From contig NZ_JAUSVK010000001.1 of the NCBI RefSeq assembly GCF_030814655.1, positions 229,501 to 293,500 on the forward strand: a stretch of DNA of 64,000 nucleotides, in the 5' to 3' direction. The notes beneath the pieces were generated by a model. That model saw only the letters and a list, made by a program, of their open reading frames with translations. It searched no databases and was not told where the DNA came from. The DNA is from Labrys monachus. GTDB taxonomy: Bacteria; Pseudomonadota; Alphaproteobacteria; Rhizobiales; Labraceae. This document shows, one piece after another, positions 11,313 through 42,216 of the stretch; position 1 is the stretch's first letter; the number at the start of each line of letters is the position of its first letter. The position numbers were made by a program, and so were the translations under genes.

Positions 11313-11435
11313 GTGCCGTTTCCTTTCCGGTCGGAAGTCATCGATGGAGCGATGATAGTTGCGCGGCGCGCGGAACGCAGTATTGTCGCCGGGACAGGCT
11401 GGGACGGCCCGGTTAGTCCCGAGAAATTCGTTTCG

Positions 11436-11463
11436 AGGGCGCGCTTATACGTCGTTCCGACGT
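11436..11463 (-). other. oriT: Putative oriT: nic consensus plus adjacent hairpin
   Basis: On the minus strand the sequence ACGTCG-GAA-CGACGT (11463 to 11449) forms a perfect 6-bp hairpin. It runs directly into ATAAGCGCGCCCT (11448 to 11436). The nic consensus of the RSF1010/pTi family is ATAAGTGCGCCCT, so 12 of 13 bases agree, and in that family the hairpin sits in the same place just 5' of nic. The location between divergent traC and traA is also the Ti-plasmid location. By analogy the cut would fall between GCG and CCCT, with transfer leading toward traC/traD and traA entering last. Confidence 0.8.
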
Positions 11464-11493
11464 GCGCTCAGAGGTGTCAATGATCAGATCGCG

Positions 11494-14400
11494 ATGGCGA
11501 TCTATCATCTTCACGTCAAGGTCATAGGCCGCAAGGCCGGCTCCAGCGCGGTGGCGTCCGCCGCCTACCGCTCGGGCTCACGGCTGCGCGACGAACGCCT
11601 CGACCGCAGCCACGACTTCTCCAATAAACGCGGCGTCGTCCATTCCGAGGTCATGTTGCCGGACGGCGCCCCCGACCATCTTTCCGACCGCGAACGGCTG
11701 TGGAACGATGTCGAAGCCGGCGAGCTGCGCAAGGACGCCCAGCTCGCCCGCGAGGTCGAATTCTCCCTGCCGCGCGAACTGACGCAGGCGCAGGGCATCG
11801 AACTGGCCCGCGACTTCGTTCAGGCCGAATTCGTCGCGTCCGGCATGATTGCCGACCTCAATGTGCATTGGGATATCGGCGAGGACGGCATGCCGAAACC
11901 CCATGCCCATGTCATGCTGACCATGCGGTCCGTGGACGAGACCGGCTTCGGCCCAAAAGTGCGGGACTGGAACCGCACGGAGATGGTCGAGCACTGGCGC
12001 GAACGTTGGGCCGAGCTTGCCAACGAACGCATGGCGGAACTCGATATCGACGCCCGCATCGACCATCGCACTCTGGAGGTGCAGGGCATCGCGCTGGAGC
12101 CGCAGAGCCAGATCGGTGCGCCCGCGCAGCGGATCGAGGCGGCGGATCGCGCCGAGATGCACCGCGAGATCGCCCGCACCAACGGCGCGCGCATCATCGC
12201 CGATCCCTCTGTTGCGCTGGACGCGATCACGCAGCAGCAATCGACCTTCACGCGCCGCGACATGGCGGTCTTCGCCCACCGCCACAGCGACGGCATCGAC
12301 CAGTTCAACGAGGTGATGGGCGCGATGGGTCGCGCGCCCGATCTCGTCGAACTCGGCAAGGACGGACATGGACAGGACCGCTTCACCACGCGCGACATGA
12401 TCGAGGCGGAACAGCGCCTGCACCGCGCCACGGATCTGATGGCCGAGACGGAACGCCATGCGGTGAACGACGCCGACAGACAGGCCGCACTTGCACGCGC
12501 CGAACAGCGCGGACTCGTGCTGTCCGGCGAGCAGGCCGGTGCGCTGGTGCATATCACGGACGGGCGCGATCTCGGCATCGTCGTCGGCTATGCCGGGACG
12601 GGCAAGAGCGCCATGCTGGGTGTGGCGCGCGAGGCTTGGGAGGCGTCAGGCTACGAGGTTCGCGGCGTGGCGCTCTCCGGCATCGCGGCGGAAAACCTCG
12701 AAAGCGGATCGGGCATCGCCTCGCGCACCATTGCCAGCCTGGAACATGGCTGGCAGCAGGGCCGCGACATGCTCAGCTCCCGCGATGTGCTGGTGATCGA
12801 CGAGGCAGGCATGGTCGGCACGCGCCAGTTGGAACGGGTGCTGTCGCATGCGGCGGAGGCGGGTGCAAAGGTGGTGCTGGTCGGCGATCCGCAGCAGTTG
12901 CAGTCCATCGAGGCGGGCGCGGCGTTCCGGTCGATTCACGAACGGCATGGCGGTGTCGAAATCCATGAAGTGCGCCGGCAGCGCGAGGACTGGCAGCGCG
13001 CCGCGACGCGCGATCTGGCGACCGGCCGAACTGGCAATGCGATCGATGCCTATCGCGCCCATGACAGGGTGCACGAGGCGGCAACCCGCGAAGGGGCGCG
13101 GAACGATCTGATCGAGGGCTGGGACCGCGATCGGCAGGCGTCCCCCGACAAGAGCCGCATCATCCTCACCCACACCAATGACGAAGTGCGGGAACTGAAC
13201 GAGGCCGCGCGGGAAAAAATGCGGGAGGCCGGAGGACTGGGCGACGATGTGCACGTCACCATTCAGCGCGGCATGAACGGCGAGCGTGGCGAACGGTCCT
13301 TTGCCAGCGGTGACCGGGTGATGTTCTTGCAGAACGAGCGCGGGCTTGGCGTCAAGAACGGCACGCTCGGCACCATCGAGACCGTCAGTGCGCAGAGCAT
13401 GAGCGTGCGCACCGACGACGGGCGCAATGTCTCGTTCGACCTGAAGGACTACGACCGTATCGACCACGGCTATGCCGCGACCATCCACAAGGCTCAAGGG
13501 TTGACGGTGGACCGCACCCATGTGCTGGCGACGCCGGGGCTGGACGCCCACGGCAGCTATGTCGCGCTGTCGCGGCACCGCGACGGCATGGAGCTGCATT
13601 ACGGCCGCGACGACTTCGCCGATCAGGACCGGCTCGTCCGCACCCTGTCGCGCGACCGGGCCAAGGACATGGCCTCGGACTATGAGCGGATCGAACCGGC
13701 GCAGTCCGATCCGGCCCGGAGCTACGCCGAGCGGCGGGGAATCAGCTTCCGCGAGCGGGTCGTCGAAATTGTCAGGAAAGTGCCGGAGAAGGTGCGCGGC
13801 ATCTTCGACGGCCTGCGCCTCACCACGGGCTCCCCGTCCGAGCCGGTATCGGGCAAGGACGCTGCGCCGGACCAGAGCAAGGGAGGGCCGGAAAGAGAGG
13901 CGGCGGAGGTCCAGCGAAAGACGGATGCGCTGGAGCGGGGCGTTGCGGCGGACCCGGAAGCGGCGCTGCGCCAGGTCCGCACCGATGCGCTGGTCCGCCA
14001 TGCCCGTGCAGCCGACGCGATCATCGAGGCCAAACGCCAGGGGCTTGACCCCTCCAACGAGGCGCGTCGCGAACTCGGCGCGGCACGACAGGCGTTCGAT
14101 GCGGTGCGCCCGAATGGATGGCAGGACGCGGAGGCGGCCTACTCCAAGGACAACAGCCTCGCACGCGAAGCCGGATCGGGTCGTATCGCCCGCACCATTC
14201 GGGCGCTTCAACTCGAAGCCGAAATCCGCACCGGGCGTGACGCCGATCCGGCTGTCGGCCTTTCCCGGCGTGCCGACCATTTCGTGGAACGCTGGCAGAA
14301 ACTTGGTCAGGCCAGCCAGCACCAATATCAGGTCGGCGACATGTCCGGCTACAAGGCCACGCGCGCCGAAATGGGCGATATGGCGAACAGCCTGAAACGC

Positions 14401-14538
14401 GACCCGCAGATGGAGTCGCTGCTCGCCAACCGCAAGCGAGAACTCGGCATCGCCTTCGACTCGGGCCGCCGACTCGGCGATGAAATCGCCTTCCATGCGG
14501 GTATCGACCTCGGGCGCGGACGCGGCATCGGGATTTGA
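11494..14538 (+). CDS. traA: Ti-type relaxase/helicase TraA
   Basis: 1014 residues from ATG 11494. The MOBQ (MobA/MobL) relaxase domain is at residues 1-~230, with the candidate nicking Tyr25 in SAAYRSGS and the metal His cluster HWDIGEDGMPKPHAHVML (125-142). The SF1 helicase domain (RecD/TraI-like) has Walker A YAGTGKSAM (~366-374), Walker B VLVIDEAGMVG, VGDPQQLQSIEAG and TIHKAQGLTVDRTHVL. The charged C-terminal ~250 residues have no recognised domain. It nicks oriT, stays on the 5' end and unwinds the transferred strand. It is at the short end for TraA but shows no frameshift. The putative oriT lies 31-58 nt upstream. Confidence 0.92.
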   Translation: MAIYHLHVKVIGRKAGSSAVASAAYRSGSRLRDERLDRSHDFSNKRGVVHSEVMLPDGAPDHLSDRERLWNDVEAGELRKDAQLAREVEFSLPRELTQAQGIELARDFVQAEFVASGMIADLNVHWDIGEDGMPKPHAHVMLTMRSVDETGFGPKVRDWNRTEMVEHWRERWAELANERMAELDIDARIDHRTLEVQGIALEPQSQIGAPAQRIEAADRAEMHREIARTNGARIIADPSVALDAITQQQSTFTRRDMAVFAHRHSDGIDQFNEVMGAMGRAPDLVELGKDGHGQDRFTTRDMIEAEQRLHRATDLMAETERHAVNDADRQAALARAEQRGLVLSGEQAGALVHITDGRDLGIVVGYAGTGKSAMLGVAREAWEASGYEVRGVALSGIAAENLESGSGIASRTIASLEHGWQQGRDMLSSRDVLVIDEAGMVGTRQLERVLSHAAEAGAKVVLVGDPQQLQSIEAGAAFRSIHERHGGVEIHEVRRQREDWQRAATRDLATGRTGNAIDAYRAHDRVHEAATREGARNDLIEGWDRDRQASPDKSRIILTHTNDEVRELNEAAREKMREAGGLGDDVHVTIQRGMNGERGERSFASGDRVMFLQNERGLGVKNGTLGTIETVSAQSMSVRTDDGRNVSFDLKDYDRIDHGYAATIHKAQGLTVDRTHVLATPGLDAHGSYVALSRHRDGMELHYGRDDFADQDRLVRTLSRDRAKDMASDYERIEPAQSDPARSYAERRGISFRERVVEIVRKVPEKVRGIFDGLRLTTGSPSEPVSGKDAAPDQSKGGPEREAAEVQRKTDALERGVAADPEAALRQVRTDALVRHARAADAIIEAKRQGLDPSNEARRELGAARQAFDAVRPNGWQDAEAAYSKDNSLAREAGSGRIARTIRALQLEAEIRTGRDADPAVGLSRRADHFVERWQKLGQASQHQYQVGDMSGYKATRAEMGDMANSLKRDPQMESLLANRKRELGIAFDSGRRLGDEIAFHAGIDLGRGRGIGI

Positions 14539-14689: not shown

Positions 14690-14985
14690 ATCACGCCGTT
14701 CCGGCGGTTGCAGAGCAAGGCCGTCGAACCCAAGGACGACAAGGCCTTCCTGTATGTCGGTGGCCGCGATACCTGGGGCAGGCTCAAGGCGGGTGAAACC
14801 CAGTACAGGCTGATCGAAACCCGCGCCGACCTTGAGGCGCTCGCCAGCGGTAAGCTCGATCTCGCCACCATGGGCCGCGGCGGTGCCCTCGATGTGATCT
14901 CCAAGGATCCCGGCGGTTTCTTCCTGATAGTCGAGGGCGGCACCGTCGAGGAGCAGATCGACTTCAACCGTGCCGTCGATCCACA
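14690..14985 (+). pseudogene. Alkaline phosphatase internal fragment
   Basis: The plus-strand frame shows GALDVISKDPGGFFLIVEGG followed by TVEEQIDFNRAVD. This corresponds to the conserved alkaline phosphatase segment around the metal-ligand Glu (in PhoA, LSKNEKGFFLQVEGA). Preceding residues (DKAFLYVGGRDTWGRLKAGE) have the look of a coding exon-like piece, but there is no N-terminal half, no nucleophile site and no C-terminal ligand His. The frame runs out into the convergent methyltransferase gene. It may derive from the same phosphatase family as the gene at the left edge; the parts do not overlap, so this cannot be tested here. Confidence 0.6.
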
Positions 14986-15782
14986 TGCGGGCGCAGTGAA
15001 CCGGCTGCTTCACCGCTCTTCCTGCACGACAGGATGAAGCGCCGGTAAATCAAAGTCCGCAACTTGTTGCGGAGCGTGGCGTGCTTGCGTTGAGCGACCG
15101 CAATGGTCCACTGAGAAGAAAGCTCGATATCGGCGAAGCCGGCATCGGCCAGCATGGGGACGAGACGTTTGGTCGTCAGTCCGCCACCGAAAGGCAATTG
15201 CGCCATGATCGCGGCGTGGCGATCACTCATGCCGCCATGATGGGGATCCGCGCCGACCAACAGGTCGATCACGTGGATGACGAGCGATGCCGCCCGGCCC
15301 ATGAGCGTCGGCCGCGCCCAGTCGCCATCGAAGATCAGCAGAAGACCACCAGGCCTCAAGATCCGCCGCCAGTCGGAGAAGGCCTGTTCGGGTTCCGTCA
15401 GCGTCCACACGAGATGACGGCAAATGATTGCTTCATAACTTGCTTCATCTTCCATAGTGCTTTCCGCGTCGGCGAGAATGAAACGGACCTTCTTGTGGCC
15501 GGCGTGCTTGCGGCGGGCGACCGTCAGCATCGCCTCGGAAAAGTCGAGTGCGGTCACTTCGTGACCGAGGCCGAGAAGGACACCGGTCACCTCTCCCGTG
15601 CCGCAGGCGAGTTCGAGAACGCGGCGTGGCTGAGGGCCAAGGGCTTGTTTGACGGCAGCGGCCCAAGCATCCAACTCCGGTCCCGCCGCGATAGCGTGAC
15701 CAAAGGCAAGATCGAAGGTCTCGGACCGTTTCGACCAATAGTCGCGAATTTCCTCTTTGAGGTCGCGGTTGATCCGTTTCAT
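14964..15782 (-). CDS. Class I SAM-dependent methyltransferase
   Basis: 272 residues. The SAM-binding motif I VLELACGTGEVTG is at ~55-67, followed by ALDFSEAML, ADAESTM and a motif-IV/V region (HLVWTLTEPEQAF; ILRPGGLLLIFDGDW). It resembles small-molecule methyltransferases of the UbiE/Methyltransf_11 type. It is the last gene of the minus-strand unit SBP-permease-ATPase-methyltransferase, 72 nt after the ATPase gene. Association with an FecBCD-type metal-chelate importer suggests modification of a metallophore or of the imported compound, an inference. The final ~25 residues overlap the phosphatase fragment, so the native C-terminus may be shorter. Confidence 0.78.
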   Translation of the reverse strand: MKRINRDLKEEIRDYWSKRSETFDLAFGHAIAAGPELDAWAAAVKQALGPQPRRVLELACGTGEVTGVLLGLGHEVTALDFSEAMLTVARRKHAGHKKVRFILADAESTMEDEASYEAIICRHLVWTLTEPEQAFSDWRRILRPGGLLLIFDGDWARPTLMGRAASLVIHVIDLLVGADPHHGGMSDRHAAIMAQLPFGGGLTTKRLVPMLADAGFADIELSSQWTIAVAQRKHATLRNKLRTLIYRRFILSCRKSGEAAGSLRPHVDRRHG

Positions 15783-15854: not shown

Positions 15855-16646
15855 TCAGGTCGCCCGATGGGGTCTGCACGGCGCGCCGTCCGGCCGGAAG
15901 CGGATCGCGCACCCTTCCGCGCCATGGTCTTCGATCACAGCATCGACGCCGAAGACCTCGCTGATGAGCGACGGTGTCAACACATTTTGCGGAGCCCCGA
16001 TGGTCAGCAATGTACCGCCACGCAGGACGGCGATCCGATCGCAGAACATCGACGCGTGATTCAAGTCGTGCAGGGCTGCGACGACGGTCAGTCGCTGTTG
16101 CCGAACGAGATCGAGTAGAGCGATCTGATGGCCGATGTCGAGGTGATTGGTCGGCTCGTCGAGGAGCAGAATCTTCGGCTCTTGGGCGAGCGCGCGGGCA
16201 ACGTGCACTCGCTGGCGCTCGCCGCCCGAAAGCGTATGCCAGAAGCGGTCGGCCAGGTGGGCCATGTCGACAGCCTGGAGCGCGGCGTCGACGATCGTCG
16301 CATCAACCGCCGACCACGGCGAGAGCGCGTCGAGATAGGGCGTGCGACCGAGTTCGACCGCTTGCCGTGCGGTGATGTGCTCAGTGGTCTCGGCCTGCTG
16401 CTCGACCAGAGCGATGCAGCGCGCCACTGTGCGGCGTCCAAAGCCAGCGAGCGGTGCACCGTCGAGTAGAATCTCGCCGATCTGAGGTCGCCGGATGCCG
16501 GAAAGAAGCGCGAGCAGACTGGTCTTTCCCGAGCCGTTGGGACCTATGATGCCGAGAAATTCACCCTGGGCGACGTCGAGCGACACGTCGCGCAAGATCC
16601 GGGTGCTGCCGGCAGACCAGGAAACGTTGCGGACGGAGAGTCTCAT
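15855..16646 (-). CDS. ABC ATPase of FecE/BtuD type
   Basis: 263 residues: Walker A GPNGSGKTSLL, Q-loop ALVEQQAE, signature LSGGERQR, Walker B ILLLDEPTNHLD, switch His in ALHDLNHA. The DEPTNHLD and HDLNHA forms are diagnostic of the iron-siderophore/haem/cobalamin importer family. Its start overlaps the permease stop by 4 nt. The cargo cannot be deduced from the ATPase. Confidence 0.88.
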   Translation of the reverse strand: MRLSVRNVSWSAGSTRILRDVSLDVAQGEFLGIIGPNGSGKTSLLALLSGIRRPQIGEILLDGAPLAGFGRRTVARCIALVEQQAETTEHITARQAVELGRTPYLDALSPWSAVDATIVDAALQAVDMAHLADRFWHTLSGGERQRVHVARALAQEPKILLLDEPTNHLDIGHQIALLDLVRQQRLTVVAALHDLNHASMFCDRIAVLRGGTLLTIGAPQNVLTPSLISEVFGVDAVIEDHGAEGCAIRFRPDGAPCRPHRAT

Positions 16647-17671
16647 GAGCGGCTCCCCCCGCGCGCCAGGAGAAGGGCGAAGGCCGGAGCACCGACGAGC
16701 GCAGTGATCACTCCGACCGGCAGAACCTGGCCCGGGATGAGCGTGCGCGAGACGATGTCGGCGATAATCATGAACACTGCTCCGATCAGCGCCACCACTG
16801 GCAGGAGCACGATGTGCCGAAGACCCACCACCATCCGCGCCGCATGTGGAATGACGAGACCGACGAAGCCGATCGAGCCGACGATCGAAACCATCACCGC
16901 CGTCATCATCGCCGAAGTCGCGACCAGCAGGACATAGGTCCGCCGCACCGGGATGCCGAGAGAGGCGGCCGAGGCGGTACCGAACGTGAAGGCATCAAGT
17001 GCCCGCGCGTGCCAGAGGCAGACGAGGAGACCAGAGAGCACCGCCGGAACCGCAATATGGACATCCGGCCAGCGCACGCCGGAAAGATTGCCGAGCAGCC
17101 AGAACATGATGCCGCGCGTCTGTTCGGCGCTCGCCGCCTTGGTGATGATGAAGGAGGTGAGTGCGTGGAAAAGCTGCGACCCGGCGACGCCGGCAAGGAT
17201 GACGGTACCTGTTCCCCGCCCGGCCCTGAGGGCGAGCAGGCTGACGAACGCTAAGGCGACGAGCGCCCCGATGAAGGCACCGACCGGCAGCGCCAACAAG
17301 CCACCGCCGACTCCGAGGATCGCCACCGACACGGCTCCCGCCGATGCGCCGGCGGAAATGCCGAGGATATAGGGATCGGCGAGCGGATTGCGCAGGAGCG
17401 CTTGCAACACCGCGCCGGAGAGCGCAAGCGCCGAGCCGCAGGAGGCAGCCACCACCGCGCGGCTGAGGCGGTAGCTCCACACGATACCCTCGTCGAGGGG
17501 CTCCAAGGGGTAGCCAGCGCCGAACAGACGGTTCGCCACCGTCTTTGCGACGACGGGAAAGGGTATCTCGGTCTCTCCGATAGCTGCTCCGAGCCAGAGT
17601 GCGGCGACGAGAAGAGCGAGCGCCAGAACAGCAGCGCCCGCCCGTCCCACGAGATGCCCGAGGATGACCAT
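16643..17671 (-). CDS. FecCD-family ABC permease
   Basis: 342 residues from ATG 17671. It is highly hydrophobic with about ten membrane segments. Family landmarks are visible: SRAVVAASCGSALALSGAVL, NPLADPYILGISAGASAG and GSIGFVGLVIPHAARM. This is the homodimeric permease of siderophore, haem and vitamin B12 importers. The start ATG shares one base with the stop of the binding-protein gene (TGATG), so the two are translationally coupled. Confidence 0.88.
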   Translation of the reverse strand: MVILGHLVGRAGAAVLALALLVAALWLGAAIGETEIPFPVVAKTVANRLFGAGYPLEPLDEGIVWSYRLSRAVVAASCGSALALSGAVLQALLRNPLADPYILGISAGASAGAVSVAILGVGGGLLALPVGAFIGALVALAFVSLLALRAGRGTGTVILAGVAGSQLFHALTSFIITKAASAEQTRGIMFWLLGNLSGVRWPDVHIAVPAVLSGLLVCLWHARALDAFTFGTASAASLGIPVRRTYVLLVATSAMMTAVMVSIVGSIGFVGLVIPHAARMVVGLRHIVLLPVVALIGAVFMIIADIVSRTLIPGQVLPVGVITALVGAPAFALLLARGGSRS

Positions 17672-18699
17672 CACCGGGCGAGCCCCGCCGAAGCAATGGC
17701 CTCGGCGACGACCTCGATGCCCTGGATGGTCCGCAGCGTCGGGTTCATGGCCTGCGCGTCGAGTTCGAAGACATGGCCGTTCCTGACCGCCGGCATCAGG
17801 CTGGTGACGGGATCGGTAGCGAGAAACCTGCGCTTGGCTTCGATGGCGTCGAGCGGAAAGCGCTGACGATCCAGCTTTCCGGCGACGATGATCGTCGGAT
17901 CGGCTTTGGCGATGGTCTCCCAGCCGACATTCGGCCACTCGTCATCGGCTTCAATCACATTGCGCAGGCCGAGCACCGACATGATGTAGGCTGGTGCACC
18001 CTTTCGGCCGGCGACGTAAGGATCGCCGTCTTTCGGGCTCGAGAACCAGAAGACGGCAGACACCTGGCCGCTGGCCGCTGCGATCTTGGTGCGTGCTGCC
18101 ACCACTCGTGCCTCGAGGCTGGTGACGGCTGCCTCGCCCCTCCCCTGAACGTCATAGATCCGGGCGAGATCTCGGATCTCGCGATAGATCAGGTCCAGTG
18201 AAAAGGCCGCGACGCGTGAGCCGTCACTGACACCTGCATTGTTCTTGCCGGTGCAGTCCGATGGCGAGATGTAGACGGGGATGCCGAGTTCCTCGAACTG
18301 CTCGCGCTTGGCGACCTCGCCCTTGGGGCCGACTTGCCACAGGAACTGGGCGGTGATGAAGTCCGGTTTTTTCGACAGGACCTTCTCGAAGCTCGGATTG
18401 TCTTTGGAGAGGCGCTCGATCTTGGCGTCGACAGCCTCGTATTCCGCAAGGACGGGGGCGATCCAACGCGCCGTGCCGACCATCCGGTCGGATAAACCGA
18501 GCATGTAGAGGATTTCCGCGCTGCCCTGGCCGATGGCGACCGTACGCGAAGGAGCTTGTTTGAACGTGATCGCGTGACCGCAATTGTCGAGGGTGAGCGG
18601 ATAACGGGTCGGCCCGGCGAATGCCCCAGATGACGGGAGACCGAAAAGGGCAACGGCGCTCAGGAGCGCGGAAAACCTCATGACGGTATGGATGAGCAT
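17671..18699 (-). CDS. FecB/BtuF-type periplasmic binding protein
   Basis: 342 residues from ATG 18699, chosen for the AAGGA ribosome site; a longer frame upstream lacks one. A signal peptide ends near SGAFAG. The mature part has the Peripla_BP_2 pattern (RTVAIGQGSAEILYMLGLSDRM; KPDFITAQ; YISPSDCTG; WPNVGWETIAKADPTIIV). Members bind metal chelates, haem or cobalamin. A Zur-like box 69 nt upstream points to zinc control, which would fit a zincophore or metal-complex importer. The cobalamin riboswitch upstream of the neighbouring nrdA leaves corrinoid uptake as the alternative. First gene of a four-gene operon. Confidence 0.85.
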   Translation of the reverse strand: MLIHTVMRFSALLSAVALFGLPSSGAFAGPTRYPLTLDNCGHAITFKQAPSRTVAIGQGSAEILYMLGLSDRMVGTARWIAPVLAEYEAVDAKIERLSKDNPSFEKVLSKKPDFITAQFLWQVGPKGEVAKREQFEELGIPVYISPSDCTGKNNAGVSDGSRVAAFSLDLIYREIRDLARIYDVQGRGEAAVTSLEARVVAARTKIAAASGQVSAVFWFSSPKDGDPYVAGRKGAPAYIMSVLGLRNVIEADDEWPNVGWETIAKADPTIIVAGKLDRQRFPLDAIEAKRRFLATDPVTSLMPAVRNGHVFELDAQAMNPTLRTIQGIEVVAEAIASAGLAR

Positions 18700-18767
18700 A
18701 CGGGGTCCTTTCTGTTCCGGAGAGTGATGGGCGTGCGTTGGACGAACCAGCTGCACCAAGACAGAAT

Positions 18768-18799: not shown

Positions 18800-19942
18800 T
18801 CAGTCCCAGGCGAGGGTCCCGCCATTCTGGTATTCGATGACGCGGGTCTCGAAGAAGTTCTTCTCCTTCTTCAGGTCCATCGTCTCGCTCATCCACGGGA
18901 ACGGATTCTCGGCCTCTCCGAAGACGAATGCGAGACCGAGCTGGGCGCAGCGGCGGTTGGTGATGAAGTGCATGTATTGCTCACAGAGCGCGGCGTTGAG
19001 GCCGAGGAAACCGCGCGGCATGGTATCCCGTCCATAGGCGGCTTCGAGTGCGGCGGCTTCTTTCAACATCCCGCGCACCTCGTCTTGGAATTGCGCCGTC
19101 CACAGATGCGGATTTTCGTGTCTGATCTGGTTGATGACGTCGATGCCGAAGTTGAGGTGGATGCTCTCGTCGCGTAGGATGTACTGATACTGCTCGGCGA
19201 TGCCGACCATCTTGTTGCGTCGGCCGAGCGACAGGATCTGCGCAAACCCGGTGTAGAACCACATGCCCTCGAACACGACGTAGAAGGCGACGAGATCGCG
19301 CAGAAACTTTTGATCCGCCTGCGGCGTCCCGGTCTCGAATGTCGGATCGTCGAGGGTCTGGGTGTACTTCAGCGCCCAGGCGGCCTTGTCCGTGATGGAC
19401 GGCACCTCTCGATACATGTTGAACAGCTCACCCTCATCGAGGCCGAGGCTTTCCACGATGTACTGGAAGGTGTGGGTGTGCACCGCTTCCTCGAATGCCT
19501 GGCGCAACAGATATTGCCGGCATTCGGGGTTGGTCAGGTGACGGTAAATGGCCAGTACGATGTTGTTGGCGACGAGGCTTTCCGATGCCGTGAAGAAGCC
19601 GAGGTTGCGCTTGATGGCGCGGCGCTCGTCCTCTGTCAGCCCGTCGCGCGATTTCCACAGCGAGATGTCGGCCTGCATAGAGACCTCGGTGGGCATCCAG
19701 TGGTTGTTGCAGGCGGAGAGATACTTTTCCCAGGCCCACTTGTACTTGAGCGGAAGCAGCTGATTGACGTCGGCACGGCAGTTGATCATCCGCTTCTCAT
19801 CGACGCTCACGCGACCGCCGGAGCGGTCGATGTCGCCAAGGCCAGTGGCATCTCCGGTGGCATCGGCGGGCGGAGGCGCGGCAGGGCGAAGGATGGGGAA
19901 AGCGGCAGGCGGGTTCGGGTCTGACCAGTCGGGCATCGTCAT
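18800..19942 (-). CDS. nrdB: Ribonucleotide reductase small subunit, class Ic-like
   Basis: 380 residues from ATG 19942 (GAGGAC ribosome site); a GTG at 19966 overlaps the nrdA stop. The ferritin-like metal ligands are present: Glu in [10 protein letters not shown], Glu and His in EEAVHTHTF, then the second-half ligands around DESIHLNFG. At the position of the tyrosyl radical of E. coli NrdB (ExxHSRSY) the sequence is EAVHTHTF, so Phe replaces Tyr (codon 19466-19468). The first ligand is Glu rather than Asp. Both changes are the marks of class Ic subunits such as Chlamydia trachomatis NrdB, which use a Mn(IV)/Fe(III) centre instead of a tyrosyl radical. It forms an operon with nrdA under the cobalamin riboswitch. 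Confidence 0.88.
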
Positions 19943-19962: not shown

Positions 19963-22872
<2,910 letters not shown>

Positions 22873-22984
22873 CCCCGATGAATGTGGGGACGGAGAGCAG
22901 GCGGACGCGTGCCACGACACGGGAGGCACATGCCGCCCAAAGCAAGCGCCTCACCGGAACACCCCGCCCGTGGACGTACATAGT

Positions 22985-23150
22985 GTCGCGGCAGGTCTCC
23001 TGGCTCGCGGGTCATCATCCTTGTACGTCTTCCCAAGGCTTTGCGGCCTCAGTGACATGGCTGAACAAGAACTCGCCACTTACAGTTGCGGGGGCAGCGC
23101 CGGCCTTGCGATAGAGCGCACCGACTTCCCTCTTAGCTTCCACGTCTTAA
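22985..23150 (-). promoter_or_regulatory. Cobalamin (B12) riboswitch in the nrdA leader
   Basis: Read on the minus strand, the leader contains GGGAAGTCGGTGCG, then GCTGCCCCCGCAACTGTAAG, a GCCAnGTCACTG-like segment and finally CGAGCCAGGAGACCTGCC. These are the conserved core elements of the AdoCbl riboswitch, ending in the B12 box (about 23004 to 22990). The expression platform lies in the ~110 nt before the nrdA start. The known logic is that cobalamin binding lowers expression; class I RNR genes under B12 riboswitches are established in bacteria that also own class II RNR. Confidence 0.93.
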
Positions 23151-23420
23151 CAGACTAGGAAGAACCACGATGTCTACATTTAGTGACAATTTATGGCGCC
23201 ATGTCAATAGGTGGTGAGCTGTTTTGTCGAACGGCTACGAAAACAGGTCGCATCCGCTCCGTACGCAGGAGACGAGCTCGTCACCTCGCAAACAAAAAGC
23301 GGTTCCGGTGCGCCACATTATGATCGATTTTTCGCTTGAAGGTATGTTCTCAGGTCACCACTCGTCTCTTGGGATCCAGGTTGCGAGGGTGCGACCAAAG
23401 CGCAGCAATAGGCCAATCCA
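23151..23420. other. No gene seen between riboswitch and broken-gene junction
   Basis: Upstream of the nrdA leader. The nrdA promoter should lie within the first ~80 bases, which are A/T-rich (around ACATTTAGTGACAATTTATGG). Short frames on both strands have no recognisable content. Confidence 0.4.
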
Positions 23421-26414: not shown

Positions 26415-26780
26415 ATGCAATGGCCGGTCGAATATACGGACGAGTTCGGCGCTTGGTGGGACGGCCTCGCCGAGTCCGAGCAGATCAGCATCGACGCCCA
26501 CGTCCGCAAGCTGGAACAGCGCGGCCCCAATCTGCCGTTTCCCTATTCGAGCGGCATCAGCGGTTCGCGCCACGCCCATATGCGGGAACTGCGCGTGCAG
26601 AGTGGAGGCAAGCCCATGCGGGTGTTCTATGCCTTCGATCCGCGCCGCTCGGCCATCCTGCTGATCGGGGGCGACAAGACCGGCGACAAGCGTTTCTACG
26701 AAACGATGATCCCGGTGGCCGATGCTCTCTATGACGAGCATCTGGCCGAACTGGAAAAGGAAAAGGACGATGGCCGGTAG
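26415..26780 (+). CDS. HigB/RelE-superfamily toxin
   Basis: 121 residues. WPVEYTDEFGAWWDGLAESE, then LPFPYSSGISGSRHAHMREL, GKPMRVFYAFDPRRSAILL and DKRFYETMIPVA match the Gp49/HigB-like RelE-fold toxins, mRNA interferases that act at the ribosome. The gene order is toxin first, with the antitoxin start inside the toxin's last codons, the usual HigBA order. It probably stabilises the mobile element next to the recombinase. Confidence 0.88.
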   Translation: MQWPVEYTDEFGAWWDGLAESEQISIDAHVRKLEQRGPNLPFPYSSGISGSRHAHMRELRVQSGGKPMRVFYAFDPRRSAILLIGGDKTGDKRFYETMIPVADALYDEHLAELEKEKDDGR

Positions 26781-27102
26781 GAGAACCTTCGCGGAGCTTC
26801 GCGCCCGCATGACACCGGCGGCGCAGGCGGCGGCCGAAGCGGAGGCCGTGCGCCTCGGCGCGGAAATGGACCTCGGCGAGATGCGGCGAGCCATGAAGCT
26901 GTCGCAGGAGGAAATCGGCCAGACACTCCAGATCAATCAGGGCTCGGTCGCCAAGATCGAGAAGCGCGCGGACATGTATGTCAGCACCCTGCGCCGCTTC
27001 ATCGAAGCGATGGGCGGGGAGTTGGAAATCGTCGCCCGCTTCCCCGACCACGCCGTCAAGATCAAGAACTTCTCCGATCTGTCGGAGAAACCGCAGGGTT
27101 GA
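26770..27102 (+). CDS. XRE-family antitoxin of the HigBA-type pair
   Basis: 110 residues from ATG 26770, overlapping the toxin gene by 11 nt. The HTH_3 fold is at residues ~38-90: DLGEMRRAMKLSQEEIGQTL, then INQGSVAKIEKRADMYVSTL. Antitoxins of this type neutralise the toxin and repress the shared promoter, which should lie in the A/T-rich stretch just before 26415 (TCTTTATGGAATAATATTCC, itself a partly symmetric sequence). Confidence 0.88.
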   Translation: MAGRRTFAELRARMTPAAQAAAEAEAVRLGAEMDLGEMRRAMKLSQEEIGQTLQINQGSVAKIEKRADMYVSTLRRFIEAMGGELEIVARFPDHAVKIKNFSDLSEKPQG

Positions 27103-27492: not shown

Positions 27493-29637
27493 ATGACCCG
27501 CCATCTTGCCCCCCGCGTCGCGCTCTATGCCCGCTATTCCTCCGACAATCAGAGCGAGGCGTCGATCGAAGACCAGTTCCGGATCTGCCGCGAGCACGCG
27601 CGCCGGGAACGCTGGGAGATCGTCGGGTCTTATGAGGATGCGGCGATCTCGGGCGCGAGCACGGTGTTGCGCTCGGGCATCCAGCGCCTCATCCGTGACG
27701 CCCAGCGCGGTGAATTCAAGATCGTGCTGGCCGAGGCGCTCGACCGCATCAGCCGCGATCAGGCCGACGTGGCGACGCTCTACAAGCATCTGAAGTTCGC
27801 CGGTATCACCATCGTCACCATGGCCGAAGGAGAAATCTCCGAACTGCATGTCGGCCTGAAGGGCACGATGAACGCGCTGTTCCTCAAAGACCTCGCGATG
27901 AAGACCCATCGCGGCCTGCGCGGTCGCGTCGAGAAGGGCAAGGCCGGCGGCGGCCTCTGCTACGGCTACAAGGTGGTGAAGCGGTTCGACGCGGCGGGCG
28001 AGCCGATCCGGGGCGACCGGGAAATCATCCCGCAAGAGGCCGACACCATCCGCCGTATCTTCCGGGACTTCGCCAGCGGCAAGAGCCCGAAGGCGATTGC
28101 GGTCGATCTCAATCGCGAGGGCGTTCCCGGTCCGCTCGGCCGCGCCTGGGGCGACACCAGCATTCGCGGTCACGTCACGCGCGGCACCGGCATCGTCAAC
28201 AACGAACTCTATGCCGGTGTGCTGGTGTGGAACCGCCAGCGTTTCGTCAAGGACCCGTCGACCGGCAAGCGCGTCTCGCGTCCCAACCCGGAAAGCGCCT
28301 GGATCAGGACGGAAGTGCCGCATCTCAGGATCGTCGATGATGCGCTCTGGAGCGCCGCCCGGGCGCGGCAGAAGCAGATCTCCGCGCTGTTCGGCCCCAA
28401 CCCGGCCAATACGCTGGAAGGGCGGATGAAGCGGCTGCATCTGGCGAACCGGCCGGTCTCCCTTCTTTCCGGGCTGCTCACCTGCGGCTGTTGTGGCGGC
28501 AAGTTCGGCATCATCACGCCGAACCGCTATGGCTGTCTCAACCATCATCGGCGCGGCACCTGCGACAACAACCACACCATCACCCGCGACAAGATCGAGG
28601 CGCGTGTGCTCGCCGGTCTCAAGGAGAAGCTGGTGTCGTCGGAGGCCGTCGCGGCGGCGGTTCGCGCCTATGCCGAAGAGATGAACCGGCTGAACCACGA
28701 CCGCCGGGCGCAGGCCGAGGTCGATCGCCGAGCGCTCGTCAAGATCGACAAGGCGATAGCCGGGATCATGGCGGCGATCGAGGACGGCCTCTATCAGCCG
28801 TCGATGAAGGCGCGGATGGAAGACCTCGAACGGCAGAAGGCGGAGATCGGCGAACGCCTGTCGCAGGCTCCGGTCGACATTCCCGACGTTCACCCCAACA
28901 TCGCCAACGCCTACCGGCTGCGCATCGATCGCTTCACCGAAGCGCTCGACGACCCGGACGGCGGTCGGCAGGCGGCGGAAGCGCTGCGCTCGCTGATCGG
29001 GGAGATCGTGCTCACCCCCGGCGAGAAGCGCGGCGAAGTCCATGCCGAGCTACGCGGCGAGCTGTTCGGGATTCTCGATTTCATCAAAGACGAGCAAAAT
29101 CAAAGCACTACCGCTTTTATGCCAGCGGTCGCAGCGTGCCCCCGCAACCAACGATTCCAACAAAGCCCTCGTCCGTATGAAACCGGACGAGGGCTTTTTG
29201 CGCTCCAATCAACGCAACGCACCAGGCGCAGTAGTAAGCGTGCCGTGAACCGCGTCTTGCCGGCGGTCCCGGATGCAGGCGATATCGCGAGTATGAGCAC
29301 AGCGATCGGACAGGAAGTGTCCACTTCAGGGATGGTGGACACCCCTGAAGCGGGACGAAGCGATAGTCGGCGTCGGCGGCCGTACGCTTACGATCGCGCG
29401 CCGCCGATCAGTGTGGCGCTGCGCGCCCGTCCCGCGGCGCGAATGTGCTCGACCGTAGCGGCTTCGAACGGCGCCGTCCTGCCAGGGACGTTGTCTCCTT
29501 CTGATGGCGGCGGTCTTGGCAATCGTCGTCTTCGTGTCGCCAGCCCATGCGATAGACTGTCGCAAGGCCTCGACCCCCATCGACCATATGATCTGTGCCG
29601 ACAAGCGGCTTCAGAAGGCCGACGCCGCCATGGGTGA
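27493..29637 (+). CDS. Large serine recombinase with read-through C-terminus
   Basis: The frame of 714 codons has a resolvase domain at ~1-150 (VALYARYSSDNQ, nucleophile Ser in RYSSDNQ, then LAEALDRISRDQADVATLY). A Recombinase domain follows (~170-290), then a zinc ribbon with LLTCGCCGGKFG and YGCLNHHRRGTCDN, and a coiled-coil segment. These enzymes integrate and excise elements at short att sites. Family-like sequence ends near LRGELFGILDFIKDE (29090). The remaining ~180 residues are Arg/Ser-rich, span a strong terminator at 29.16-29.20 kb and overlap the next gene. They are probably chromosomal DNA read in frame, marking the element's right junction near 29.1 kb. Confidence 0.85.
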   Translation: MTRHLAPRVALYARYSSDNQSEASIEDQFRICREHARRERWEIVGSYEDAAISGASTVLRSGIQRLIRDAQRGEFKIVLAEALDRISRDQADVATLYKHLKFAGITIVTMAEGEISELHVGLKGTMNALFLKDLAMKTHRGLRGRVEKGKAGGGLCYGYKVVKRFDAAGEPIRGDREIIPQEADTIRRIFRDFASGKSPKAIAVDLNREGVPGPLGRAWGDTSIRGHVTRGTGIVNNELYAGVLVWNRQRFVKDPSTGKRVSRPNPESAWIRTEVPHLRIVDDALWSAARARQKQISALFGPNPANTLEGRMKRLHLANRPVSLLSGLLTCGCCGGKFGIITPNRYGCLNHHRRGTCDNNHTITRDKIEARVLAGLKEKLVSSEAVAAAVRAYAEEMNRLNHDRRAQAEVDRRALVKIDKAIAGIMAAIEDGLYQPSMKARMEDLERQKAEIGERLSQAPVDIPDVHPNIANAYRLRIDRFTEALDDPDGGRQAAEALRSLIGEIVLTPGEKRGEVHAELRGELFGILDFIKDEQNQSTTAFMPAVAACPRNQRFQQSPRPYETGRGLFALQSTQRTRRSSKRAVNRVLPAVPDAGDIASMSTAIGQEVSTSGMVDTPEAGRSDSRRRRPYAYDRAPPISVALRARPAARMCSTVAASNGAVLPGTLSPSDGGGLGNRRLRVASPCDRLSQGLDPHRPYDLCRQAASEGRRRHG
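29162..29199. terminator. Strong rho-independent terminator
   Basis: AAAGCCCTCGTCCG, a TATGAAAC loop and CGGACGAGGGCTTTTT form a perfect ~14-bp stem with an A-run on one side and a T-run on the other, so it can act in both directions. It lies inside the open frame of the recombinase, which suggests it belonged to the chromosomal locus beside the integration point. Confidence 0.85.
29200..29503. other. No gene seen between terminator and LprI-like gene
   Basis: Only the read-through extension of the recombinase frame crosses this stretch. It contains the paired words GTGTCCACTTCAGGGATGGTGG and ACACCCCTGAAG, a weak dyad. The promoter of the LprI-like gene should be here. Confidence 0.35.
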
Positions 29638-30349
29638 AGCGTATGCGACCATCCTGAAGGCCACGGTGGACGCGGAGATCCGCAGCGCGCTCGTTGCCAG
29701 CCAGAAACGATGGCTGTCTCGCCGGGACGAACAGCTCGGTCAAGTGAACGAGAACGACGCCTCCGGCGAGGACTCCCGCGGAATCCTGCTGCAGGCCATG
29801 CAGGACCGCACCAGGGATCTGGCCCGCCGCTCCGATACCGATCCGAAGCTGCCGCGCCTGGTCGCGATCATGCTCGAGCAACAGAAATTCGCGGCACAGT
29901 TCACAGGCGGCGCTTTCGCCGGCTTCGACACCTCCTGCGACTTTCTGCCCGGAGGCGGCCGCTACAGTTACGGATGCTTCGCCATTCAGCACTATCAGAA
30001 CCGCGATCGGGTCTGCACGCTGGATCAGGATTGGGCGAGCGGCAGCGTCTATGAGAAGCATGCGGTCGCTGAAGTCGTCGACGGCCGGTTGAAAACGATC
30101 GCGACCTGTTCGATCGGGGGGGACGACGACAATCCCTGTCCGGGCGCCGAGGCCCAATCGGGCCAGAGCGCGAGCTGGAATATTCATCCCAAAGTCTCGT
30201 CCGGGGCGGGCAATCCGCCCGCTCATCCTCTTCCCCGGCTGGATGCCGACGTGAACGCCGAAACCGATGCGCCGTGGCTGCACGCCTGCCTGACGGACAG
30301 TGCTTATCCGCTGGCCGATCCGGCCAGCGGCGGCTCAGGGGCGCCGTAA
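29504..30349 (+). CDS. Secreted protein with LprI-like N-terminal domain (DUF1311)
   Basis: 281 residues from ATG 29504. A short signal peptide ends AHAIDC. The mature N-terminus IDCRKASTPIDHMICADKRL, then ADAAMGEAYATIL and QKRWLSRRD, is the Cys-paired helical LprI/DUF1311 domain known from lysozyme-inhibitor-type proteins. The rest contains several Cys pairs (DTSCDF, YGCFAI, RVCTLD, TCSIGG, PCPGAE) and no recognised fold. Probably a periplasmic envelope protein. It is the first complete gene right of the recombinase junction. Confidence 0.7.
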   Translation: MAAVLAIVVFVSPAHAIDCRKASTPIDHMICADKRLQKADAAMGEAYATILKATVDAEIRSALVASQKRWLSRRDEQLGQVNENDASGEDSRGILLQAMQDRTRDLARRSDTDPKLPRLVAIMLEQQKFAAQFTGGAFAGFDTSCDFLPGGGRYSYGCFAIQHYQNRDRVCTLDQDWASGSVYEKHAVAEVVDGRLKTIATCSIGGDDDNPCPGAEAQSGQSASWNIHPKVSSGAGNPPAHPLPRLDADVNAETDAPWLHACLTDSAYPLADPASGGSGAP

Positions 30350-30424
30350 TGACGAAGCCATCCGGGGAGCGGACGCATGAGACCGATCGCGTCGTCGGGG
30401 CGCAGCGTCAGCCTTGCCGCTCCG

Positions 30425-30799
30425 TCAGCGGGCCATGAAGAGGCCCTGGTTGACCGTTCTGTCGTAGCACTCCTCGGAAAAGCCGGGATGCCCCTGGCGG
30501 AGCCTGTGGATGCTCTCCGGATATGTCAGTCGATTCGAGAGCACATCGTCGCCGGCCTGATAGGCGTCCTGCAGGAGTGCAATCACCCGGCGACAGGCGT
30601 CGCTGATTTCGCTCTCCGAAAAGCGATTTCTCAGGACATCCAGATCGATCGGAAGCGGGTGAGGAAGGGGGCCGAACCGCCGATCAAAGTCGCTATAGGA
30701 AATAACAGCAAACGCTGCATCCAGCAGCCCGGCGTTCAGCGCTTGTCTCTCGACCCTGGCGCGGGCCGTGGTTTGAAGCTGTTCGCTCCCTTCGTCCAT
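30425..30799 (-). CDS. Hypothetical protein, 124 residues
   Basis: Starts at ATG 30799. No signal peptide or known domain. Helical sequence with QALNAGLLDAAFAVISYSDF, DLDVLRNRFSESEISDACRR and ALLQDAYQAGDDVLSNRL. It is convergent with the LprI-like gene and divergent from the small secreted protein at 30985. Function unknown. Confidence 0.55.
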   Translation of the reverse strand: MDEGSEQLQTTARARVERQALNAGLLDAAFAVISYSDFDRRFGPLPHPLPIDLDVLRNRFSESEISDACRRVIALLQDAYQAGDDVLSNRLTYPESIHRLRQGHPGFSEECYDRTVNQGLFMAR

Positions 30800-30984
30800 A
30801 GGACATCTCAGAGCTGTTTCATTCGGCAAGGTTACACATAATCGATGGAGGTATCGATGAAGGTTCTCCGCGACCGTCGCGAGATTGCCGCCGGTGTCGC
30901 CTTGCTCGTCGCGAAGCGGCTGCTTTTCGGAGCCGGAATGCCATCCTCCGTACGACGCCAACTCGACATTGGAGAAAATTCGTA

Positions 30985-31371
30985 ATGCATAGCCGACTTG
31001 CAGGCCTTCTCGTCACGGGGCTCATTGTGCTCAATACGCCAGCGATCGCGGCCGAAGGCCGGGCGCGCGATAGCGCCGATCCCAGCGAGATTGCGGAAAG
31101 GACGCGATCGTTCGAACAGGATCTGACGGGTTTCGGCCTCCCGGCCGGTTTGACGTGTTCGTCGCTGGTCGAGGTTCTCAGCGACGCCGGAGGCCAGGAC
31201 CAGAGCTTTGGCGGCATCTGCGCCATGCGACTGCGGGGTAAGAAGCCGGCCACGATCATGCTCTGCAACGATACGACGGTCGGGAGGCTGACAATCAAGG
31301 CTTACGGCTTCACCGAAGACAAAAGCGACTTGGTGAACTTCACGGCCGCCAATTGCCCGGCAGGCGGCTGA
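30985..31371 (+). CDS. Small secreted hypothetical protein, 128 residues
   Basis: Starts at ATG 30985 with a GGAGAAA-type ribosome site. A signal peptide (LAGLLVTGLIVLNTPAIAAE) is followed by a 105-residue mature part with four Cys (LTCSSL, GICAMR, MLCNDT, ANCPAG), which could form two disulfides. No family was recognised. Predicted periplasmic. Confidence 0.65.
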   Translation: MHSRLAGLLVTGLIVLNTPAIAAEGRARDSADPSEIAERTRSFEQDLTGFGLPAGLTCSSLVEVLSDAGGQDQSFGGICAMRLRGKKPATIMLCNDTTVGRLTIKAYGFTEDKSDLVNFTAANCPAGG

Positions 31372-31552
31372 CGGCCGCCGGGCGAGGGCGTGACGGCGTC
31401 GGCTGGATGGAGATCCCATCGCTTGCCTCTGCCTCGGAGACCGCACCTCTCTCAGCCGCCAGCCGACTCTTGCGCGTCGGCCCGGCGCGGTCCAGAAGAT
31501 ACCCTTATTCCGCTCAGTCGTGCGGGACGCTGCGCCGGAAAGAGGACGAGGC

Positions 31553-32005
31553 ATGCACCTGCTGGTGAACGAAACGCGCTCCTATCATTGGCACAGGGAC
31601 GGCTACACGATCAGCACCGATCGGAGCCGCCTCGACATGGACATGATCACGCGTTTCCTCGCCGAGGAGGCCTATTGGTCCCCGGGAATCCAGCCGGAAC
31701 TGGTCGTGAAGGCGATCAACGGCTCCATACCCTTCGGACTCTACGACGATCGGGGCGACCAGGCGGGGTTCGCCCGCGTCGTCACGGACGGCTCTCTCTT
31801 CGCCTATCTGCGGGATGTCTTCGTCCTCAAGGATCATCGCGGCAAGGGCCTCGGACGATGGCTTGCGGAGGCTGCCGTGGAGCACCCCGACCTCAGCACG
31901 GTCAAGGGGTGGATGCTCGCCACGGACGACGCGCATGCCGTGTATGCAAAAGTGGGGTTTCAGCCGCTGAAACGGCCCGATTGGTACATGCAGATCGTGC
32001 GCTGA
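31553..32005 (+). CDS. GNAT-family N-acetyltransferase
   Basis: 150 residues from ATG 31553. AFARVVTDGSLFAYLRDVFV-like motif D/A region (FARVVTDGSLFAYLRDVFVL), then DHRGKGLGRWLAEAAVEH (acetyl-CoA loop) and YAKVGFQPLKRPDWYMQI at the end. This matches the small GNATs with the conserved VLKDHRGKGLG and PDWYMQI blocks found next to many proteobacterial genes. Acceptor unknown; monocistronic between the secreted protein and arsH. Confidence 0.82.
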   Translation: MHLLVNETRSYHWHRDGYTISTDRSRLDMDMITRFLAEEAYWSPGIQPELVVKAINGSIPFGLYDDRGDQAGFARVVTDGSLFAYLRDVFVLKDHRGKGLGRWLAEAAVEHPDLSTVKGWMLATDDAHAVYAKVGFQPLKRPDWYMQIVR

Positions 32006-32139
32006 GGCGTTTCGTCGCCACGGCCCTGTCCATCGACGGCGGTCCGCGGCGGCGCTGAACACCGAGACCCCGGCGCCGGAAAGCGGGCGCTGCGGCGGGA
32101 CATTCCGCACAGGCGAGAACCAGCCGCGTCCCGGGGCCG

Positions 32140-32856
32140 TCAGATCGAGGCGAGCCTGACCCGTGCCTCCAGCTTCGCGGCTGCTTCCTTGCGCTCGCTG
32201 TAGCGGTCCGTCAGGCAGGCGGAGACGTCCCGCGTCAGCAGCGTGAACTTCACCAGCTCCTCCATGACGTCGACGACACGGTCGTAAGAGGAAGACGGCT
32301 TCATCCGGCCGTCCGGCTCGAACTGCTCGAAGGCCTTGGCGACGGAAGACTGATTGGGGATGGTGATCATCCGCATCCAGCGGCCGAGAATGCGCAGCTG
32401 GTTGACGGCATTGAACGACTGGGATCCGCCGCTGACCTGCATGACCGCGAGGGTGCGGCCCTGCGTCGGGCGGATCGCCCCGATGGCGAGGGGAATCCAG
32501 TCGATCTGCGCCTTCATGACGGCGCTCATCGCGCCATGACGCTCGGGACTGCACCAGACCTGGCCCTCGGACCAGAGCGACAGCTCGCGCAGTTCGCGGA
32601 CCTTGGGATGATCGGCCGCCGCCGCATCCGGGAGTGGCAGGCCGTCGGCGTGGAATACCCGGGTTTCGGCACCGAAATGGCGCAACAGGCGCTCGGCCTC
32701 CAAGGTCAGCAGGCGGCTGTAGGAGCGTTCGCGCAGCGAGCCGTAGAGCAGGAGAATGCGCGGCGGATGCGTGGAGAAACGCGGCGGCTGCAGATCCCCG
32801 AGGGTTGGAATAGCGAGGGCCCCGGCCTCGACATTCGGCAGGTCGACGGTCTTCAT
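32140..32856 (-). CDS. arsH: ArsH, NADPH-dependent organoarsenical oxidase/FMN reductase
   Basis: 238 residues from ATG 32856. The flavodoxin-like NADPH/FMN motif [19 protein letters not shown] is at ~33-51, followed by [40 protein letters not shown] and [14 protein letters not shown]. All of these are ArsH signatures. ArsH oxidises trivalent organoarsenicals and is an accessory detoxification enzyme. Last gene of the ars operon; its start overlaps the acr3 stop by 4 nt. Confidence 0.93.
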
Positions 32857-33908
32857 GGCCGGGCTCCCGACGGCGCCGACCGGCGGGCGCCGCGATCGTA
32901 CCAGCCGCGGCTGCCATTGACGATCCACACCACCGTCAGCATCACCGGAACCTCGATCAGCACGCCGACGACCGTCGCCAGCGCCGCGCCGGAATGAAAG
33001 CCGAACAGGCTGATCGCCGCGGCGACGGCGAGCTCGAAGAAGTTGCTGGCGCCGATGAGGGCCGAGGGGCCGGCCACGCAATGTTCCTCGCCGGCGAGCC
33101 GGTTGAGGACATAGGCGAGGCCGGCGTTGAAATAGACCTGGATGAGGATCGGCACCGCGAGCAGCGCGATCACCACCGGCTGGGCGATGATCTGCTCGCC
33201 CTGGAAACCGAACAGCAGGACGAGGGTCGCGAGCAGCGCCAGCAGCGAAACCGGCCCGATCCGCGCCAGCAAGCCGGCGAGGGCGGCCTCGCCGCCGGAA
33301 ACGAGGACCTGGCGCCGGATGAGCTGCGCGATGATCACGGGCACGACGATATAGAGGATGACCGAGAGCGTCAGCGTATCCCAAGGCACGGTGATCGCCG
33401 ACAGGCCGAGCAGCAGGCCGACGATCGGCGCGAAGGCGACGATCATGATGGCGTCGTTGAGCGCCACCTGGCTGAGCGTGAAATGCGGCTCGCCGCGCGT
33501 CAGGTTCGACCAGACGAACACCATGGCGGTGCAGGGCGCCGCCGCCAGGAGGATGAGGCCGGCGATGTAGGAATCGATCTGTCCCGCCGGCAGATAGGGG
33601 CGGAAGAGGTAGCCGACGAAAAGCCAGCCGAGCGCCGCCATCGAGAACGGCTTGACGGCCCAGTTGATGAACAGCGTCACGCCGATGCCGCGCCAGTGCC
33701 GGCCCACGGTCTTCAGCGCGGCGAAGTCGATCTTCATGAGCATGGGAATGATCATGAGCCAGATCAGCACGGCAACAGGCAGGTTGACCTTGGCGAGCTC
33801 GAGTGAGCCGATCGCCTGGAACAGGCCGGGCAGGGCGTGGCCGAGGGCGACGCCTGCGACGATGCACAAGGCGACCCAGACGGTCAGGTAGCGTTCGAAG
33901 CGGGACAT
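32853..33908 (-). CDS. acr3: ACR3-family arsenite efflux permease
   Basis: 351 residues, about ten membrane helices. The key cysteine lies in [20 protein letters not shown], with [20 protein letters not shown] toward the end, as in ACR3 transporters (bile acid:Na+ symporter superfamily). It extrudes As(III) produced by the two reductases of the operon. It starts 9 nt after the arsC (Grx-type) stop. Confidence 0.93.
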
Positions 33909-33917
33909 GGTCGGTTC

Positions 33918-34705: not shown

Positions 34706-34788
34706 GATGCCAGAATAGAAGACGCATGGACGTGTCACAAGCACAGGACGATGGCCCGGCGGATCGTCGGACAGGCGCAAGGGAGGCA

Positions 34789-35301: not shown

Positions 35302-35567
35302 GGTTGCCTCCCGACCTGGCGCCCGTCGTGCGCCTCTATAGGTCGTTATATCGAGACTAGCCGACATGTGGAGCGATTGCAATGGCAAGCTTCGGCCGTC
35401 GCATGCGCCCGCACCCGGAGGCCTCACGCCCGGGCCGCATCGCTTTCGCCGAGCGCAGGGATCTCGTTTTGCGGCGCGATGCTCTATAATCCTAGCCGAC
35501 AACGGCAGATCCCTGCTCTTCGATGCGAGGGGCGGGGCCGGCACGACACGCACGGGAACGCTCTCCA

Positions 35568-39421: not shown

Positions 39422-39431
39422 GCGAGGCTCC

Positions 39432-42213: not shown

Positions 42214-42216
42214 GCG

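Follow-up and report, generated by a model that had tools for sequence, protein, structure and literature searches.

Why bacteria retain a manganese/iron (Mn/Fe) ribonucleotide reductase is an open question. In excerpts of PMC4118035, reductases of class Ic are discussed in relation to iron limitation and nitric oxide and are assigned primarily to extremophiles and pathogens. The window, that is, the whole 64-kb stretch of alphaproteobacterial DNA analysed here, contains an nrdAB pair of class Ic type. This is a known kind of enzyme in an uncommon host, and its regulatory setting suggests a likely purpose. Class Ic residues, a B12 switch and the B12-dependent reductase NrdJ occur together in many alphaproteobacterial relatives as well, and this combination offers a different, testable reason: cobalt would be swapped for manganese/iron when B12 fails. 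We assign a probability of roughly 0.8 to the reading that nrdAB is a B12-repressed, B12-independent spare reductase of class Ic type for NrdJ, probably with an Mn/Fe cofactor and probably co-transcribed with a corrinoid importer. What the sequence itself shows is the set of class Ic residues, the order of the genes, the riboswitch and NrdJ; the metal, the sign of regulation, the co-transcription and the transporter cargo are inferred. The features of the locus are listed in Table 1.

Table 1. Features of the nrdAB locus and its neighbourhood (positions within the window)
Feature	Position	Strand	Evidence
MobA/MobL relaxase-helicase	11359..14538	plus	PF03389 237 bits, AAA_30 204 bits
Class I SAM-dependent methyltransferase, closing the same-strand run	14964..15782	minus	Methyltransf_11 76 bits
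ABC ATPase of the same transporter, overlaps the permease end	15855..16646	minus	ABC_tran 120.8 bits
FecCD/BtuC-type permease	16643..17671	minus	PF01032 281 bits
Periplasmic binding protein, BtuF/FecB-type ABC transporter	17671..18702	minus	Peripla_BP_2
nrdB, class Ic-type (R2c) small subunit	18800..19942	minus	NF005550 673.3 bits, cut-off 309
Phe159 codon TTC, radical-tyrosine position	19466..19468 (read 19468-19466)	minus	Codon check and alignment to C. trachomatis
nrdA, class I large subunit, two ATP-cone stretches	19963..22929	minus	NF005544 1677.5 bits, cut-off 965
Cobalamin (B12) riboswitch aptamer, nrdAB operon leader	22973..23184	minus	RF00174 120.2 bits
Large serine recombinase	27493..29637	plus	Resolvase, Recombinase and Zn_ribbon_recom domains

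The nrdB gene starts with an ATG at 19942 on the minus strand and encodes a protein of 380 aa, which is not a chance match, as its NF005550 score of 673 bits stands against a cut-off of 309. The first-pass annotation had claimed a phenylalanine at the radical-tyrosine site and an apparent glutamate as the first metal ligand, and had proposed an R2 alignment as a check. In this alignment, all 13 checked positions (W82, E121, E152, H155, F159, Y161, E225, F229, Y254, D258, E259, H262 and Y371) were identical to those of Chlamydia trachomatis R2c. Phe159, a redox-inert residue in the motif EEAVHTHTF, replaces the radical tyrosine and aligns with C. trachomatis F127, no tyrosine being present at that position, and its TTC codon was found exactly where it had been placed. 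The first metal ligand is Glu121, aligned with C. trachomatis E89; in E. coli and in the 27 alphaproteobacterial rows of class Ia-like type, this position is Asp. Y254, W82 and F229 are the equivalents of C. trachomatis Y222, W51 and F197, but are also kept in the 25 nearest rows with Asp and Tyr (D/Y) at the ligand and radical positions, so they are not diagnostic alone. The C. trachomatis numbers W51, Y222 and F197 come from excerpts of PMC4118035, where Y222 and W51 are involved in electron injection and F197 lies between the metals.

The closest solved structures to NrdB are PDB 6y2n, which we take to be the R2 of Saccharopolyspora erythraea (84% identity), and C. trachomatis R2c (58%). 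Thus, the ligand set, the phenylalanine, the equivalents of Y222, W51 and F197 and a shared clade with 6y2n make the class Ic assignment well supported at the level of sequence, in agreement with the first-pass annotation. By analogy with C. trachomatis R2c, which is most active with Mn/Fe according to excerpts of PMC4118035 and PMC8463856, NrdB probably uses an Mn(IV)/Fe(III) pair without a radical tyrosine. For an alphaproteobacterium such an R2 is uncommon, though not without precedent: in a sample of 385 genomes of the class, 3 passed the family cut-off, one of them the source genome.

Phylogenetic trees, also proposed in that annotation, were built from 97 and 45 of the 144 aligned rows with the two diagnostic columns masked. 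NrdB was placed in a 51-row clade composed entirely of rows with Glu and Phe (E/F) at the two positions (SH-aLRT 98), and in a 17-row clade in the second tree (98/95). The all-E/F clade includes 6y2n, Alphaproteobacteria, Actinomycetota, a few Gammaproteobacteria and scattered others; C. trachomatis, the haloarchaeal plasmid proteins and most E-type viral proteins fall outside it. NrdB thus grouped with E/F proteins. It did not make up a clade of its own with C. trachomatis, and a topology that unites every E row in one clade was not rejected. The first ligand and the radical site were coupled in all 144 rows, with Glu accompanied by Phe (77), Val (13) or Ile (1) and Asp by Tyr (53). Two further scenarios were considered and dropped. 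Several origins of the E/F state were suggested by D/Y rows standing among E/F groups in both trees, but the all-E clade was not rejected (p = 0.325). Horizontal entry into the genus was suggested by the window row standing apart from its three congeners, but a clade of these four rows was not rejected either (AU p = 0.405).

Among the viral loci, 21 of 80 were read for residues. On 14 viral contigs (L147-L149, L151, L152, L161, L167, L171, L175, L177, L186, L194, L205 and L210), the glutamate ligand goes with a radical site occupied by Val (13) or Ile (1). According to excerpts of PMC6370689, the NrdBz group of RNRdb includes both Tyr (Ia) and Phe/Leu/Val (Ic) proteins, so that Val is listed there for class Ic. 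The relatives gathered here likewise mix D/Y with E/F, E/V or E/I, and from this mixture NrdB appears to belong to NrdBz. Note that the R2 of L107, titled as a Klebsiella pneumoniae MAG, groups with environmental Gammaproteobacteria and may come from a mislabelled bin.

The partner gene nrdA starts with GTG as listed, and an alternative ATG at 22872 was noted by eye. Its product (988 aa) matched the Pfam barrel, all-alpha and ATP-cone domains, and the second ATP-cone segment reported in the first-pass annotation was recovered as one of two such stretches in the Pfam search. All nine checked catalytic and radical-path residues (C395, N607, C609, E611, C624, Y926, Y927, C984 and C987) match those of E. 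coli NrdA; the window NrdA retains the active-site Cys triad, the Asn/Glu residues, the paired radical-path Tyr and the C-terminal Cys pair. The NF005544 model fits NrdA better (1677 bits, above the cut-off) than NF009029, presumably the chlamydial NrdA model (1128 bits, below the cut-off of 1350).

The leader of nrdAB contains a cobalamin riboswitch that covers the full RF00174 model (1-189; E = 1.4e-29, gathering score 31.5), ends 43 bases before the listed nrdA start and is the only Rfam match above the gathering score in the window. Folding of the leader RNA gave z = -1.3 without a clear switching structure. The source genome (6.92 Mb, one contig) contains six cobalamin riboswitch matches, one of them partial, and others among them precede cobW-cobN, a NicO-type transporter and a Rieske oxygenase-reductase pair. 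It has one R2 gene and, besides nrdA, one other class I/II large-subunit gene, which encodes a class II NrdJ (NF005736, 2288 bits, cut-off 1737). A class III reductase gene was not found in the genome by a search that was positive in 6 of 14 control genomes. The riboswitch and the NrdJ partner, both missed by the first-pass annotation, say more about the function of nrdAB than the metal does: since nrdAB stands behind a B12 riboswitch, it is most likely a spare for the B12-dependent NrdJ.

Under this proposal, plentiful adenosylcobalamin would bind the leader riboswitch and turn the nrdAB operon off, while NrdJ would make the deoxyribonucleotides. When B12 or cobalt is short, the riboswitch would release its ligand and the operon would be turned on, and a tyrosine-free, probably Mn/Fe reductase would take over without a need for B12, its oxidising equivalent probably being stored in the Mn(IV)/Fe(III) pair of NrdB. 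The importer, probably made from the same transcript, would scavenge corrinoid.

In the genus, NrdJ above the cut-off was found in all five genomes and nrdAB in four of them, each with a riboswitch (two by Rfam and two by pattern scan). The genome without nrdAB (G001) contains, next to a complete NrdJ, a further NrdJ-like gene that is shorter (C11:101864-104695; profile 1-942 of 1222, 1447 bits, below the cut-off). The wider scan of named genomes covered 80 loci, the best 80 of at least 409 relatives, and a two-part pattern of the aptamer core was sought in the 900 bases upstream of the nrdA portion that aligned. This pattern gave no matches in 1.5 Mb of base-shuffled sequence and agreed with Rfam at 21 of the 21 loci tested. 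Among these best 80 of at least 409 relatives, a riboswitch was detected at 41 loci, comprising 40 of 65 E/F loci and 1 of 15 D/Y loci (Fisher p = 1.1e-4, which, like the p-value below, is only a guide because the genomes are related). The sole D/Y locus with a match, L119, was found by the pattern scan alone, without Rfam, and its spacing is unusually long. Five loci without a usable nrdA start (L043, L059, L095, L117 and L121) were counted as negative, as was L103, where the pattern lies upstream of the expected nrdA start and outside the rule; L082, L085 and L103, whose translations were broken, stand outside the rows of the main residue alignment and were typed as E/F from BLAST alignments. 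The E/F plasmid copies of two haloarchaea and the two scanned D/Y plasmid relatives, L223 and L224, had no riboswitch.

The search for large subunits covered 42 of the genomes behind the 80 named loci; NrdJ was sought at the curated cut-off in 29 genomes, namely the five of the genus and 24 named alphaproteobacterial ones (G404 is the same strain as G002). In the latter 24, riboswitch and NrdJ were both present in 19, both absent in 4, NrdJ alone was found in 1 (L068) and the riboswitch alone in none (Fisher p = 4.7e-4). In two of the alphaproteobacteria with neither (L067 and L070), a further NrdA of class I is present. Outside Alphaproteobacteria the link is not clean, and it fails in Actinomycetota. 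Seven actinobacterial genomes (L078, L079, L080, L082, L085, L086 and L096) contain a second, NrdJ-like large subunit and no riboswitch by scan, with NrdJ confirmed by NCBIfam for L079 only and the absence of the riboswitch by Rfam for L078 and L079 only; in L091, also from Actinomycetota, a riboswitch is present and no second large subunit was found. In addition, the B12-independent metE was found in the fetched flanks of 11 of the 80 loci (again the best 80 of at least 409 relatives), one as a partial match; in Labrys sp. WJW and on a plasmid of Methylocella, separate riboswitches precede nrdA and metE. A cobalamin riboswitch was also seen on a contig catalogued as viral (L140:1796-1999), together with an NrdB with 82% identity that groups with the alphaproteobacterial ones.

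These counts bear on the view that class Ic is constitutive or stress-induced, its advantage being a metal-centred oxidant that withstands nitric oxide or peroxide or lowers the need for iron, and that the B12 switch is of secondary importance. We regard this as improbable. Hypotheses in excerpts of PMC4118035 speak for it, as do alphaproteobacteria with the class Ic type and without the riboswitch (L053, L067, L068, L070 and L077). However, four of these five have no NrdJ above the family cut-off, and the switch is present in 19 of 20 tested alphaproteobacterial NrdJ carriers, so that a spare for NrdJ fits the data better.

The genes that follow nrdB on the same strand encode a binding protein, a permease, an ATPase and a methyltransferase, and the transporter genes overlap by a few bases with the starts chosen. 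The ATG start of the binding protein and its signal-like N-terminus were chosen by eye (a longer TTG ORF reaches 18759), and so was the permease start, an ATG overlapping the stop of the binding-protein gene (the listed ORF reaches 17938). Among 239 further genomes of the class, four have a relative of the binding protein (E of 1e-40 or better, 44-54% identity). The transporter gene order was kept in all four, and in three of them a cobalamin riboswitch lies within about 300 bases in front; the transporter is therefore likely to be a corrinoid-type (B12-type) importer. Its sequence also matches siderophore and haem systems, and the window transporter did not reach the curated cut-offs of B12 transporter models. 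Between nrdB and the binding-protein gene there is a weak promoter-like site (9 of 12), so the transporter may be transcribed separately. Sites of this kind are to be expected by chance (two found, 1.5 expected), and perhaps nrdAB and the transporter share one transcript. The two were also considered as a conserved neighbour pair, which was not borne out in the 80 named loci (the best 80 of at least 409 relatives) and a Phyllobacterium plasmid; the sole related arrangement there was a more distant transporter upstream of nrdAB in two Phyllobacterium.

In one of the four relatives, a partial counterpart of the methyltransferase (48% over 71 aa) follows the transporter genes. As unexplained members of the run, the methyltransferase and the metal-type transporter could be taken to mean that nrdAB runs on di-iron, di-manganese or another oxidant. 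Such a cofactor seems doubtful, given that all 13 positions agree with those of C. trachomatis R2c and that this protein is most active with Mn/Fe (excerpts of PMC4118035 and PMC8463856).

The first-pass annotation had also placed nrdAB on a mobile cargo block. The relaxase-helicase neighbour suggests a mobilisable element, a serine recombinase gene lies nearby, and relatives with 85-88% identity were found on plasmids of Phyllobacterium, Methylocella and Aureimonas. These findings support a mobile block only in part, as no element ends were found. No tRNA was found in the 64-kb window. In the search for an empty site, the DNA of 29000-46000 was compared with the other genomes of the genus, and the matches listed were short pieces at dispersed places. 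Beside the serine recombinase, two short overlapping frames (26415-27102) form a candidate HigB/HigA-type toxin-antitoxin pair, identified by eye. Three plasmids, of Acidithiobacillus (L223), Flagellatimonas (L228) and Massilia (L229), have a D/Y-type nrdB and no annotated nrdA in the fetched stretch, their gene tables being incomplete.

The same relaxase-helicase and recombinase genes, together with the plasmid and phage relatives, could also mean that nrdAB is passive cargo of a mobile element, either selfish or supplying dNTPs for the replication of the element, with little role for the host. This is less probable still, since a copy is present in four of the five genomes of the genus, with a riboswitch in all four, and the switch is missing from the scanned D/Y plasmid relatives L223 and L224. 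No sign of decay or inactivity of nrdAB was found, and this reading can practically be dismissed, as both frames are open and all checked catalytic, radical-path and ligand residues are kept.

Both class Ic itself and control of a class I reductase by a B12 riboswitch, in Streptomyces, were already known, and R2s of class Ic type are annotated on many plasmids. The C. trachomatis enzyme (PDB 1syy and 4d8f) shares with NrdB the phenylalanine at the radical site, the glutamate as the first ligand, the Y222/W51/F197 equivalents and 58% identity, whereas nrdAB of the window stands behind a cobalamin riboswitch in a genome with NrdJ, and its NrdA fits NF005544 over NF009029. The S. erythraea R2, studied in PMC7467353 (seen as excerpts), has the same residue set at 84% identity, its host being an actinomycete. 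The nrdABS operon of Streptomyces coelicolor (Borovok 2002, 2006, via excerpts of PMC4991794; the 2006 work is also cited in those of PMC5962746) is likewise a class I operon behind a B12 riboswitch in a genome with B12-dependent NrdJ; however, it is described as class Ia and includes an AraC-type nrdS. Where cobalamin riboswitches control B12 transport or B12-independent isozymes (metE, for example), both the switch and the logic are the same, but in the window the transporter and the reductase form one same-strand run. No description of a class Ic reductase under a B12 riboswitch was found in the literature searched, which consisted mainly of open-access titles and excerpts.

A broader proposal, to which we give even odds, sees the Mn/Fe class Ic reductase of Hyphomicrobiales and neighbouring groups as a travelling "B12-insurance" cassette, composed of the riboswitch and nrdAB and sometimes B12 uptake or metE, which would move between chromosomes and plasmids of bacteria with NrdJ as the core reductase. 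Mn/Fe would then be selected for its freedom from cobalt and not for hostile hosts or extreme places.

Other genes were seen in similar settings. In L060, an anaerobic class III gene (NRDD, L060:3895-5919) lies just upstream of nrdAB and behind a further cobalamin riboswitch at 3573-3780, making it a second reductase class under such a switch. The Rieske oxygenase and reductase behind a cobalamin riboswitch in the source genome resemble GbcA/GbcB (glycine betaine monooxygenase), and a pair of this kind adjoins nrdAB in relatives (L134:2538-5196, L109:11212-13802, L062:11504-14388 and L060:11334-14029). Two GbcA-like proteins that were scanned scored 520 and 523 bits, below the curated 670, and the pair is perhaps another B12-independent isozyme under B12 control.
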